NCBI GenBank assembly: GCA_013821605.1
Contig: JACDGP010000014.1
Span: 1-63,665, forward strand
DNA length: 63,665 nt
DNA from: Herpetosiphonaceae bacterium
Lineage (GTDB): Bacteria > Chloroflexota > Chloroflexia > Chloroflexales > Kallotenuaceae
Direction: 5' to 3'
The stretch's first letter is position 1; each line of letters opens with the position of its first letter. Made by a program: the position numbers and the translations under genes. The notes under the pieces were generated by a model. That model did no database searches. It was not told the origin of the DNA and was given only the letters and a program-made list of their open reading frames with translations. Of this stretch, positions 34,796-39,646 are shown in pieces.

Positions 34796-37700
34796 ATGCA
34801 TCCCGTCGAAGCATACCTCCAAGACCTCCATACGATTCACGCCTCGGGCTCTGCAGTCAGAGAAACCTCGTATTATCCGGCGCTGGAGCGGCTGCTGAAT
34901 GAGATTGGCAAGCTGCTCAAGCCACGGGTGCGGTGTGTGCTCACGCTCCGGAACCAGGGCGCGGGCATACCGGATGGCGGCTTGTTCACAGCAGACCAGT
35001 TTCAACGGTCGGCGGCGGGGGAACCGTTGCCCGGTCAACTACCGGCGCGTGGGGTGGTAGAGGTTAAGGGTACCAACGCCGATGTGCAGGTGATCGCGCA
35101 CAGCGAACAAGTGAAGAAATATCTGGCACGCTACGGTCAAGTGTTAGTGACGAACTATCGCGATTTCCTGCTGGTAGGGCCGGGGCCAGAAGGTGGGGCG
35201 AGCGAACTTGAGGCCTACCACCTGGCCGCGAACGAGGCCACATTCTGGAACTCGTCGCCACACGTGTTGGCCGAAGCACACGGCGCACAGCTTACGGAAT
35301 ATTTGAAGCGCGTGATGCTGCATGCTGCCGTGCTAAGCAATCCGGCAGATGTGGCCTGGTTCCTGGCATCCTATGCACGCGACGCACGGGCACGGATAGG
35401 AGATCGGAATGTGCCAGCCCTGGCAAGCATCCGCCAGGCCTTGGAGCAGGCACTCGGGATTACCTTCGAAGGCGAACGGGGCGATCACTTTTTTCGCTCG
35501 ACGCTGATTCAGACCTTGTTTTATGGGGTCTTCTCGGCATGGGTGCTGTGGCATGAGGAAGACCCCGAGCGCACCGACCGCTTTGATTGGCGGCTGGCCG
35601 AACATTATCTGCATGTGCCGATCATCCAGGCGTTGTTCGAGCAAGTGTCAGGGCCGACGAAGCTCAGACCGTTGCAACTGATGGAGGTGCTAGGTTGGAC
35701 CGGGGCGGCGCTGAACCGCGTCGATAGAACAACCTTTTTTCAGAAGTTCGAGCAAGGGCTCGCGGTGCAGTATTTCTACGAGCCCTTCCTAGAAGCCTTC
35801 GACCCAGAGCTACGCAAAGAGTTGGGCGTTTGGTATACGCCGCCAGAGATCGTGGAATATATGGTGGCTCGCGTAGATACCGCGCTACGTGAAGAGTTGG
35901 GCATCGCGGATGGGCTGGCGGATCCCCAAGTGTATGTGCTCGATCCGTGTTGTGGGACGGGCGCGTACCTAGTCGAAGTGCTACGGCGGATCGAAGGGAC
36001 GCTGCGGGCGCAGGGCGATGATGCATTAGTGGCGGCGGAGATCAAGCGGGCAGCGCGAGAGCGCGTTTTTGGCTTCGAGCTGCTGCCCGCGCCATTTGTC
36101 GTCGCGCATTTGCAGATGGGACTGCTGCTGCAACGGCTCGGTGCGCCGTTTGACGACGAGACGAACGAGCGCGGCGCGATCTTCCTGACGAACGCCCTGA
36201 CAGGCTGGGAACCGGCGAACGAGCCGAAGACGATGCTGATGTTTCCGGAACTGGAGCAAGAACGTGATGCTGCCGAGCATGTGAAGCGTGATGTGCCGAT
36301 CCTGGTAATCCTCGGTAATCCGCCGTACAACGGCTTCGCTGGCTTGGCAGTCGAGGAAGAGCGGGTGCTGTCTAACGCGTACCGGGCAACGAAACGTGCC
36401 CCGGCACCACAAGGCCAAGGGCTCAACGATCTGTATGTGCGCTTCTTCCGTATGGCCGAACGGCGGATTACGGAGCAGACCGGACGGGGCATCGTGTGCT
36501 TTATCTCGAACTACTCGTGGCTGGATGGTCTGTCGTTTACAGGGATGCGCGAACGGTATTTGGAGACGTTCGATGAACTTTGGATCGACAACTTGCACGG
36601 TGACCGCATCATCTCTGAATACAGCCCAGATGGACAAACAAGCGAGACAGTTTTTGCCGCGCCGGGAACATCGCCCGGCATTAAGATTGGCACAGCAATA
36701 AGTTTGCTGATTCGCAAAAACAGAATTGAGCGCAGTGGAGCTCAAATACTTTACCGAGACATGGATCAAGCACGGGCATCGGCACGTAAGGTAGCACTCC
36801 TCACCAGCTTACGACAACCGAACATTAGGCAAGAATATGCTGCTCTCGCTCCAATTGCTGAGATCGGACTGCCGTTTAAGCCTCGTGCTATTAGTGATAC
36901 GTATCTTGCGTGGCCGCTGCTGTCTGACCTCTTCCCCGTCTCATTTCCAGGTGTCAAGACCAGCCGGGACGATGTTGTAGTGGATACTGACAGGGATCGG
37001 CTGGCGCGGCGAATGGAGCAGTATTTCAATCCACAAATTAGTCATGAGGAGATGCGGCGTCTTGTGCCAGGGGCGATGGGAGGGGAAGGCGGTTTTAACG
37101 CTGTATCTACCCGCGATTATTTGATCAAGCGTGGCTTTCTGGATAAGAACATTATTCGCTACTGCTACCGGCCCTTTGATCTACGCTGGCTGTATTGGGA
37201 GCCGGAAACGAAATTGCTTGATCGTAATCGCGCTGAGTATTTTCCGCATGTGTTCGAGGGAAATATATGGATTGAGGCCCGGCAGAAGCAGGCGATGGAA
37301 CACTTCGACCGAGGCTATGTGGTGCGGGTCCTGAGTGACAACTTCGGTAACGGATTGTCGAACTATTTCCCGCTCTATCTTGGCACCGGAAGTACACAAC
37401 CATCACTGCTTGATCATGGTATTAGCTTCACCCCAAAGCCTAACCTTGGTGCAGCAGCGATCAGATATCTGACGGCATTAGGGGGCGATGAGCATGACTT
37501 GTTCTACCACGCTGTCGCCGTGCTCCACGCACCTGCTTACCGTGCCGAGAATGATGGGGCGTTGCGGCAGGATTGGCCGCGCATTCCGCTTCCGGTAGGT
37601 AAAGAGATGCTCCTCCACTCTGCAGTACTCGGACGGCAGATCGCCGCGCTACTGAACCCTGAAACCCCTGTATCCGGTGTGACGACGGGAACGATCCGGC

Positions 37701-38173
37701 CTGAGTTACGAATTATCGGCGGGGTGGCACGAATGGGCGATACGTCGATCAATGCAACTGCGGGTGATCTTGATGTGACAGCGGGTTGGGGGCATGGTGG
37801 TAATGGGCGCGTAGTCATGCCAGCACGGGGCAAGATAGTGAGCCGAGCATATAGCGCCGAGGAGCAGGCGGCGTTTGCAGCAGCGGGAGCGGAGGCGCGG
37901 CTCGGGACAACGACGTATGATGTGTACCTCAATGATCGTGCGTACTGGCGTAATATTCCGAGCAAGGTGTGGGAGTACACCATCGGCGGCTACCAAGTGG
38001 TCAAGAAGTGGCTCAGCTACCGCGAGAAGACTGTTCTCCGGCGCGGATTGACCCTGGACGAGGTGCGCGAAGTGACGGCGATGGCGCGGCGGATCGCGGC
38101 GATCTTGCTGCTGGAGCCGGAGCTAGACGCGAGCTATGAGGCGGTGAAGGGTTGTGGCATAGCTCCTGCCTGA
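34796..38173 (+). CDS. Type IIG-like restriction endonuclease/N6-adenine methyltransferase
   Basis: 1125 aa, ATG at 34796. An N-terminal PD-(D/E)xK-like nuclease is suggested by GIPDGGLF and GVVEVKGT (about residues 58-92). A helical connector follows (about 160-340). The methyltransferase has the SAM motif VLDPCCGTGAYLVEVL (about residue 382) and catalytic motif IV LVILGNPPYNGF (about residue 507), marking N6-adenine methylation. The C-terminal 450 residues would be the target-recognition domain. There is no helicase, so it is not a type ISP enzyme. One protein would both cut and protect. The C-terminus (VKGCGIAPA) differs from that of the decayed second copy at 39863. Confidence 0.88.
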   Translation: MHPVEAYLQDLHTIHASGSAVRETSYYPALERLLNEIGKLLKPRVRCVLTLRNQGAGIPDGGLFTADQFQRSAAGEPLPGQLPARGVVEVKGTNADVQVIAHSEQVKKYLARYGQVLVTNYRDFLLVGPGPEGGASELEAYHLAANEATFWNSSPHVLAEAHGAQLTEYLKRVMLHAAVLSNPADVAWFLASYARDARARIGDRNVPALASIRQALEQALGITFEGERGDHFFRSTLIQTLFYGVFSAWVLWHEEDPERTDRFDWRLAEHYLHVPIIQALFEQVSGPTKLRPLQLMEVLGWTGAALNRVDRTTFFQKFEQGLAVQYFYEPFLEAFDPELRKELGVWYTPPEIVEYMVARVDTALREELGIADGLADPQVYVLDPCCGTGAYLVEVLRRIEGTLRAQGDDALVAAEIKRAARERVFGFELLPAPFVVAHLQMGLLLQRLGAPFDDETNERGAIFLTNALTGWEPANEPKTMLMFPELEQERDAAEHVKRDVPILVILGNPPYNGFAGLAVEEERVLSNAYRATKRAPAPQGQGLNDLYVRFFRMAERRITEQTGRGIVCFISNYSWLDGLSFTGMRERYLETFDELWIDNLHGDRIISEYSPDGQTSETVFAAPGTSPGIKIGTAISLLIRKNRIERSGAQILYRDMDQARASARKVALLTSLRQPNIRQEYAALAPIAEIGLPFKPRAISDTYLAWPLLSDLFPVSFPGVKTSRDDVVVDTDRDRLARRMEQYFNPQISHEEMRRLVPGAMGGEGGFNAVSTRDYLIKRGFLDKNIIRYCYRPFDLRWLYWEPETKLLDRNRAEYFPHVFEGNIWIEARQKQAMEHFDRGYVVRVLSDNFGNGLSNYFPLYLGTGSTQPSLLDHGISFTPKPNLGAAAIRYLTALGGDEHDLFYHAVAVLHAPAYRAENDGALRQDWPRIPLPVGKEMLLHSAVLGRQIAALLNPETPVSGVTTGTIRPELRIIGGVARMGDTSINATAGDLDVTAGWGHGGNGRVVMPARGKIVSRAYSAEEQAAFAAAGAEARLGTTTYDVYLNDRAYWRNIPSKVWEYTIGGYQVVKKWLSYREKTVLRRGLTLDEVREVTAMARRIAAILLLEPELDASYEAVKGCGIAPA

Positions 38174-38202
38174 TCTAGCCACTGACACAGGAGATGTGCA
38201 AC

Positions 38203-38694
38203 ATGACCGAGAACAAGCCGGAACACGGCCTACCGCTGGGATCACCTGCTCCCGATTTTACGCTGCTTGCGGTTGGCGGGCAGACGGTATCGTCCGCACA
38301 ATTTCGTGACCGGCAACCGGTCGTCGTGGTATTTTATCGTGGCTGGTGGTGACCGCACTGCAACCAGCAGATGAGCCAGTTGGCTCATGAGTATCAACGT
38401 TTCCTAGAGGCGGGCGTGGCGCTCTTGATGGTCAGTGTCGATAGCATACGCCGAGCAACAGAGCTTGCGCGGACAGCATTCGCCCCATTTCCGGTGCTTG
38501 CTGATCGAGATGCGGACGCGACGGTCGCTTTCAACGTCTTTGAGAATGGTATTGCCCTACCAAGCACATTTGTGATCGACAAAGCTGGCACGCTCCGCTG
38601 GAGCTATATCGGCCAAAATCCTAAGGATCGGCCCACTATCGCGACGATGCTTGACCAGGCGCGCATCGTCGCAGGTCCATCTGCAGCAGCATAA
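38203..38694 (+). CDS. Probable selenocysteine-containing peroxiredoxin (TGA at the peroxidatic position)
   Basis: 163 residues if TGA is read as Sec. ATG at 38203 follows AGGAG by 8-9 bases. The N-terminus GSPAPDFTLLAVGG is a normal AhpC/TSA start, and the active-site strand reads VVVVFYRGWW, TGA (38350-38352), PHCNQQMSQL. Relatives have FYRGxWCPYC, so the TGA stands exactly where the peroxidatic Cys belongs, leaving a UxxC motif. The frame stays open and conserved beyond it (LLMVSVDSIRRATELA, LPSTFVIDKAGTLRW). A hairpin of bacterial SECIS type lies 19-36 bases after the TGA. It would reduce peroxides. The alternative is a TGC/TGT-to-TGA mutation, making it a pseudogene. Automatic callers would start at 38371. 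Confidence 0.82.
38371..38388 (+). promoter_or_regulatory. Candidate bacterial SECIS element
   Basis: ATGAGCC (38371-38377) pairs perfectly with GGCTCAT (38382-38388) around the loop AGTT. The loop starts 25 nt after the TGA and has G in its second position. Both fit the published rule for bacterial SECIS hairpins (loop 16-37 nt from UGA, G among the first two loop bases). Confidence 0.7.
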
Positions 38695-38703
38695 TTGCCA
38701 GGT

Positions 38704-39147
38704 TTACTCGTGTTTTGCCAAGCTACGCACATTGCCGAGGCAACAAGCACCCTGCGGGTTCCGAAGATCACAGGCACATTGTCCGGCCTGAATGCCTACC
38801 ATTATGTCAACGATGATAGCTTGACGATCAGCGAGGGTCGCCATGTGGATGTCACCGACTGTGTGACGAAAGCAATAACAGGCCCAGACCGTTGGATCGG
38901 TAGGCACCTTTTGATAGACACGTTCCCGGAGTTGGTCCGTTGTGAAGTGGTGGGAGTGATCGGCCGCAAAGTAGACAACGCGACAGGTGGGTGTTGGGCA
39001 AAATAGATAGGGACCGTCAGCGACCTCGCGCAGACTCGCTGCTAGCAGCGCCTTGACGGTTTGCCCTGAAACGGCTTTGCCTTGATGGTGACAGGAAGCA
39101 CATATCGCAGCAGGAAGCTGTGGGAGACCAGCATACATTTCAGCCAC
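38704..39147 (-). CDS. CopZ-like iron-sulfur metallochaperone
   Basis: 147 aa from a GTG at 39147 with AGGAG eight bases upstream, overlapping the merR stop by eight bases. The layout matches the N-terminal domain of Archaeoglobus-type CopZ: CASCHHQGKAV, a helix, LFCPTPTCRVVYF, then ACYCFRHTVGDI and, near the C-terminus, CACDLRNPQGACCLGNV. These cysteines would hold a zinc ion and a [2Fe-2S] cluster. The usual C-terminal HMA copper domain is absent. Co-transcription with a metal-sensing MerR suggests handling of copper, mercury or another thiophilic metal. It is convergent with the selenoperoxiredoxin candidate. Confidence 0.8.
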   Translation of the reverse strand: MAEMYAGLPQLPAAICASCHHQGKAVSGQTVKALLAASLREVADGPYLFCPTPTCRVVYFAADHSHHFTTDQLRERVYQKVPTDPTVWACYCFRHTVGDIHMATLADRQAIIVDIMVGIQAGQCACDLRNPQGACCLGNVRSLAKHE

Positions 39148-39589
39148 GTGATTGCTCCTCTGGCTGATGGCTGGCGTCGTGGAACGTAGGATAGGCCTTT
39201 AGCAGGGCACATATACACTGCTCACCGAGCACATCATCTTGTGGAAGAGTTACACCCTCAGCAAGAAGCTCTGCCAGGGTAGTTCGGAGGCTAAGTAGAT
39301 CGGCAATGCGATGATCTACGTCGCTCAGATGGCGGGCGAGTGCCGCGAGAACATGCCCGCAGGGTGCCTCTCCACTATCCCGAGCGCGCTGGATCTCAGC
39401 AACATCCACGAGTGGCAAGCCAACGCTACGTGATCCCGCTATTAAGCGGAGCCGATCCACATCTCGGGCACTATACATCCGGTAGTTGTTTGGTCCGCGA
39501 TGGGGCGCCGGTAGCAAGCCGATGGTTTCGTAGTAGCGGATAGTTTTAGCCGGTACACCGGCCAACTGTGCAAGTTCCTGAATGAGCAT
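39140..39589 (-). CDS. MerR family metal-responsive regulator
   Basis: 149 aa from the ATG at 39589, nine bases after AGAGGG; upstream codons fall inside the promoter. The winged HTH is LIQELAQLAGVPAKTIRYYE, then TIGLLPAPHRGPNNYRMYSA. A long dimerisation helix follows. Cysteines at GEAPCGHVL and, at the C-terminal end, EQCICALLK are placed as metal ligands in the manner of MerR/CueR-like sensors. It probably activates its own operon (merR plus the CopZ-like gene) by untwisting the 19-bp-spaced promoter upstream. Which metal is sensed cannot be decided. Confidence 0.9.
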   Translation of the reverse strand: MLIQELAQLAGVPAKTIRYYETIGLLPAPHRGPNNYRMYSARDVDRLRLIAGSRSVGLPLVDVAEIQRARDSGEAPCGHVLAALARHLSDVDHRIADLLSLRTTLAELLAEGVTLPQDDVLGEQCICALLKAYPTFHDASHQPEEQSRG

Positions 39590-39615
39590 GACGTATTCCC
39601 TCTTTAGCCTGCCAT

Positions 39616-39646
39616 ACTGTACACGTTCCAGTGACTGGAAGGTCAA
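39616..39646 (-). promoter_or_regulatory. MerR-type promoter with 19-bp spacer and palindromic operator
   Basis: Minus strand: -35 TTGACC (39646-39641), 19-bp spacer, -10 TACAGT (39621-39616). The spacer holds TTCCAGT-C-ACTGGAA (15-bp palindrome, 39640-39626). The long spacer and the central palindrome are the hallmark of promoters that MerR proteins remodel. Confidence 0.82.

Follow-up and report, generated by a model that had tools for sequence, protein, structure and literature searches.

The locus and the predicted protein

The window, that is, the whole stretch of 63,665 nucleotides that was analysed, carries a gene for a Prx-like protein of the AhpC/TSA type with an in-frame TGA, followed within the coding sequence by a hairpin (Table 1). 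Pfam family PF00578 matched the translation over residues 13–133 (E = 3.4e-31, 108.2 bits for a cut-off of 26), and this match crosses the TGA. The TGA stands in the context FYRGWW-U-PHC, at the first position of a UxxC motif, where it is aligned with a Cys of relatives. Among NCBIfam models the best match was NF040769, SelL-related redox protein, over residues 15–106, at 63.1 bits, below the curated cut-off of 120. Substitution rates show purifying selection on the protein both upstream (dN 0.38, dS saturated) and downstream (dN 0.33, dS 1.58) of the TGA.

An AlphaFold model, computed from 22 locus proteins, reached a pLDDT of 93.9 and a pTM of 0.89, and in it residue 50 immediately precedes a helix beginning at residue 51. 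The best solved relatives by sequence profile were the putative peroxiredoxin Rv2238c, bacterioferritin comigratory proteins and ResA. Where relatives carry T-x-x-C or S-x-x-C, it is Thr or Ser that aligns to position 50, so that selenocysteine (Sec) replaces that residue. In T-x-x-C the peroxidatic residue is the Cys, and Cys53 would be its counterpart. The U50xxC53 pair probably has a redox role, as part of a thiol/selenol oxidoreductase or of a peroxidase. Read through the TGA, the gene corresponds to one selenoprotein of 163 residues, for which ordinary annotation would give two frames of 52 and 107 amino acids.

Upstream, a gene for a Type ISP restriction-modification enzyme (PF18135) ends 29 nt before the start of the selenoprotein gene. 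On the other side, directly adjoining and convergent, lies the Cys form of a gene for a putative CopZ N-terminal-type iron-sulfur metallochaperone; for the (seleno)protein form, NCBIfam has the sister model NF045877. A MerR-family regulator of the metal type adjoins the CopZ-like gene.

Table 1. Features of the predicted selenoprotein locus and its neighbours (positions in the window)
Feature	Position	Strand	Evidence
Type ISP restriction-modification enzyme	34796–38173	+	PF18135
Shine-Dalgarno-like AGGAG, 9 nt upstream of ATG 38203	38189–38193	+	sequence; inference
Prx-like AhpC/TSA selenoprotein gene, 163 residues (TGA as Sec), TAA stop at 38692–38694	38203–38691	+	Pfam; predicted structure
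In-frame TGA, codon 50, first position of UxxC	38350–38352	+	TGA at the aligned codon in 74 homologous sites
TGC, Cys53, second position of UxxC	38359–38361	+	invariant in an alignment of 22 proteins
5′ arm of the candidate bSECIS stem, ATGAGCC	38371–38377	+	sequence, folding, covariation
Apical loop, AGTT	38378–38381	+	sequence, folding; loop kept in same-register homologues
3′ arm of the candidate bSECIS stem, GGCTCAT	38382–38388	+	sequence, folding, covariation
Putative CopZ N-terminal-type iron-sulfur metallochaperone, Cys form	38704–39147	−	NF047645 over cut-off
MerR-family metal-type regulator	39140–39646	−	

Folding of the hairpin

An initial annotation of the locus had described a bacterial SECIS-like hairpin, with a perfect stem of 7 bp and an AGTT loop carrying G at its second position, 25 nt after the TGA. 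The sequence is exactly so, the G of the loop being followed by U; the stem starts 18 nt after the TGA, and the distance of 25 nt holds when measured to the start of the loop. A more stable alternative structure, named there as a possible refutation, did not appear: in RNA folding the stem was the MFE structure in all contexts from 18 to 171 nt, and no more stable competitor was found in any of these. Pairing probabilities were 0.995–0.998 for the five inner pairs, and 0.945 and 0.867 for the two outer ones. The isolated 18-nt hairpin has a folding energy of −9.8 kcal/mol. A small additional hairpin can form immediately 5′ of the main one, at 38358–38370. A search of Rfam at gathering thresholds gave no match at the hairpin, which is unsurprising for an element of this length.

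The stem is wholly coding and covers codons Met57 to His62. It does overlap the ATG at 38371, as had been noticed, but this ATG, taken at the time for an apparent start codon, is the internal Met57 and not a separate gene start.

Agreement with the bacterial SECIS model and chance expectation

The bSECIS model of PMC13188914 calls for a loop of 3–9 nt, a stem of 4–16 bp, a G as first or second base of the loop, a spacing of 16–37 nt between the Sec UGA and the loop, and an MFE of −7.5 kcal/mol or lower. The present hairpin lies within all of these limits (7 bp, 4 nt, G at position 2, 25 nt and −9.8 kcal/mol), which bears out the agreement with known distance and loop rules stated in the initial annotation. 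The accompanying statement that chance agreement was unlikely turned out too strong. When the same rules were applied to both strands of the window, an equally good hairpin was found after 44 of the 1945 TGA triplets (2.3%), and 128 triplets (6.6%) passed criteria of the published type. A single hairpin is therefore only modest evidence.

Such a count speaks for another reading, in which the selenoprotein gene is genuine but the hairpin is a mere by-product of its codons, while SelB in fact binds a different fold or a longer structure close by; the small extra hairpin that can form just 5′ points in the same direction. Since the region stood out little by its plain MFE z-score (−1.34), the synonymous codons of the gene were shuffled instead. 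Such shuffles seldom equalled the native hairpin, either in stem score (p = 0.005) or in folding energy (p = 0.002), which argues against a by-product.

Conservation and covariation in homologues

A contig scan with the protein as query gave no confirmed relatives, and homologues were therefore taken from whole-genome searches of the family and the phylum, with stop counting. TGA was found at the aligned codon in 74 homologous sites from many genomes, a few of the loci overlapping; once identical downstream sequences were collapsed, 65 remained.

Covariation was measured in an alignment (A2) of 18 distinct sequences having an AGTT or GGTT loop in the same register, sequences in other registers being left out. 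The seven-pair stem was paired in 86.5% of cells, against 67.1% in shuffles. Both-side changes were seen in 6 of the 7 pairs, with 23 double-change cells against 9.5 in shuffles, counts that overstate the number of events since related sequences are not independent. The covariation score was 0.561 against 0.214 for shuffled alignments, a value reached by none of 500 shuffles, and versions of the stem slid along the alignment scored at most 0.157. A second alignment (A1), of 28 distinct sequences picked by loop letters alone, gave the same answer at lower strength. In the nearest relative (G003, 55% identity) the stem reads ATGGGCC/GGCCCAT, a paired A-T to G-C substitution; only 4 stem pairs are left in its close paralogue. 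The comparison with homologous Sec genes that the initial annotation had called for thus finds the hairpin kept there, with compensatory changes in the stem.

In one of the registers of the family, 52 of the 65 TGA homologues had a stem of at least 5 bp, against 3 of 47 relatives with Cys, Ser or Thr at this codon (Fisher p = 7e-16, an optimistic value given that the registers were defined after the TGA set had been seen and that many non-TGA relatives are more distant). A shuffle test that is independent of registers gave p < 0.05 in 47% of the TGA genes and in 0% of the non-TGA relatives. Both the retention of the exact stem through compensatory changes across divergent homologues and the near absence of hairpins from non-TGA relatives count against a by-product of this kind, and we consider that reading very improbable. 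It is conservation and covariation among the sequences, rather than hairpin geometry alone, that carry the case for a SECIS.

In the remaining 13 of the 65 TGA homologues, the common registers held no strong hairpin. Six loci (L050, L052, L056, L063, L091 and L096) form a sub-group with the motif FYRGDW-U-PYC or SYC, then NGQL, in which the TGA is present without such a hairpin; their SECIS may have another form. The element of the family could also occupy at least two positions, with the loop either at +25 nt (AGTT) or at about +20/21 nt (GTG/GTT or CGTGG-type), a shift of 4–5 nt in a stretch where the protein alignment is ungapped. The chances for and against this seem to us about equal; if true, the two-position SECIS would be a natural series for the spacing freedom of SelB.

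Further variants were seen among the homologues. In one Chloroflexota genus, two or three Prx-like copies lie next to each other, and every copy has both a hairpin and a TGA at the Sec position (L082, L086 and L089 on G015:C11; L061/L083, L080/L088, L084/L090 and L081/L087). Locus L066 (G196:C94, 1501–1950, − strand) has the TGA and the hairpin, with the second redox Cys changed to Asp (U-G-P-D), a UxxD-type motif. Its second TGA was rejected as a Sec codon, being the terminal stop, and so was the one TGA counted in L049, where the codon at the Sec position is TGC.

Selenocysteine machinery

The host genome (5.9 Mb, 99.6% complete) encodes a tRNA-Sec scoring 59.9 bits, above the gathering score, which ARAGORN calls SeC with anticodon tca. 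SelA was found at 544 bits, its closest named relatives being from Chloroflexota, and SelB at 335 bits, with the two Pfam winged-helix domains PF09106 and PF09107. SelD, at 377 bits, has its own in-frame TGA, then a strong hairpin whose loop is CGGGT, so that the genome very likely holds at least one Sec gene besides the present one. With tRNA-Sec, SelA, SelB and SelD all in the same genome, as a bSECIS requires of its host, this bacterium very likely decodes UGA as Sec.

Among sampled genomes with a TGA homologue, a full SelA was present in 50 of 51 (counted by hand), compared to 243 of 301 overall (p = 9e-5). In the exception, which has a tRNA-Sec above the cut-off beside its TGA Prx-like gene, SelA is split in two (profile positions 1–189 and 237–452; G236:C6:30365-31518), either broken or misassembled. 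In the genome of the nearest relative, G003, no SelA was seen in the 86%-complete assembly, and tRNA-Sec is present.

Interpretation

We conclude that the hairpin at 38371–38388 is, with little doubt, the bacterial SECIS of a Prx-like selenoprotein gene in a Chloroflexota bacterium. Folding, covariation in homologues and the Sec machinery of the genome support this reading, which was also that of the initial annotation. Against it stand the frequency of comparable hairpins after TGA in the window, the TGA homologues that have no strong hairpin in the usual registers, the four pairs left in the G003 paralogue and the failure to see SelA in the 86%-complete G003 assembly. Could this instead be an AhpC/TSA gene of the Cys type, with a TGA due to nonsense mutation or sequencing error and a hairpin there by chance? 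TGA is one base away from the Cys codons TGC and TGT, and Cys relatives do exist. The same codon is nevertheless TGA at 74 homologous sites, in many genomes and in independent assemblies, selection is purifying on either side of it, and the genome has the machinery to read it; we regard such an accident as extremely unlikely. It is just as implausible that translation really ends at the TGA and that a separate frame is translated by restart under control of the hairpin: the ATG at 38371 begins a 107-aa frame and sits in the stem, but the AhpC-TSA domain crosses the TGA, a product starting at Met57 would be without both active-site residues, 50 and 53, and homologues often have a non-start codon there (for example CTC, GTC or CTG) while retaining TGA and hairpin. 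Both the restart and a pseudogene were rejected on these grounds.

With the hairpin taken as a SECIS, SelB binding and Sec insertion are predicted to take their standard course. SelB, together with GTP and Sec-tRNA-Sec, would bind the AGUU apical loop and position Sec-tRNA-Sec at the UGA, 25 nt upstream of the loop. The UGA would then be decoded as selenocysteine, residue 50, and translation would run on to the TAA at 38692.

Comparison with known systems

The hairpin of E. coli fdhF exceeds the present one in length and carries a bulged U, whereas the present stem is short and perfect. At the protein level, SelL has a UxxU motif, whereas the present protein has UxxC. The ocean survey PMC2398784 places SelL among the Prx-like proteins and lists 225 “Prx-like 1” UxxC sequences. 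Compared to the consensus model of bacterial SECIS elements (PMC13188914, Figure 2A), of which the E. coli formate dehydrogenases are the best-studied cases, the present hairpin shows no essential difference, and the understanding of SECIS elements is unchanged by this finding.

The Prx-like thiol:disulfide oxidoreductases (PF00578, UxxC/UxxU) are a high-confidence predicted selenoprotein family (PMC13188914). Like these and the Prx-like 1 proteins (PMC2398784), the present protein belongs to PF00578, has Sec first in UxxC and a predicted bSECIS directly downstream; unlike those catalogued, it is a divergent Chloroflexota member. UxxC Prx-like selenoproteins of PF00578 are thus already in the literature and the present gene is therefore a further example of a known family, the example itself being what is new. 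A count of Chloroflexi selenoproteins in 2006 came to only three (PMC1794560), and the TGA homologues found across the Chloroflexota broaden the sampled Prx-like selenoproteins and their SECIS elements.
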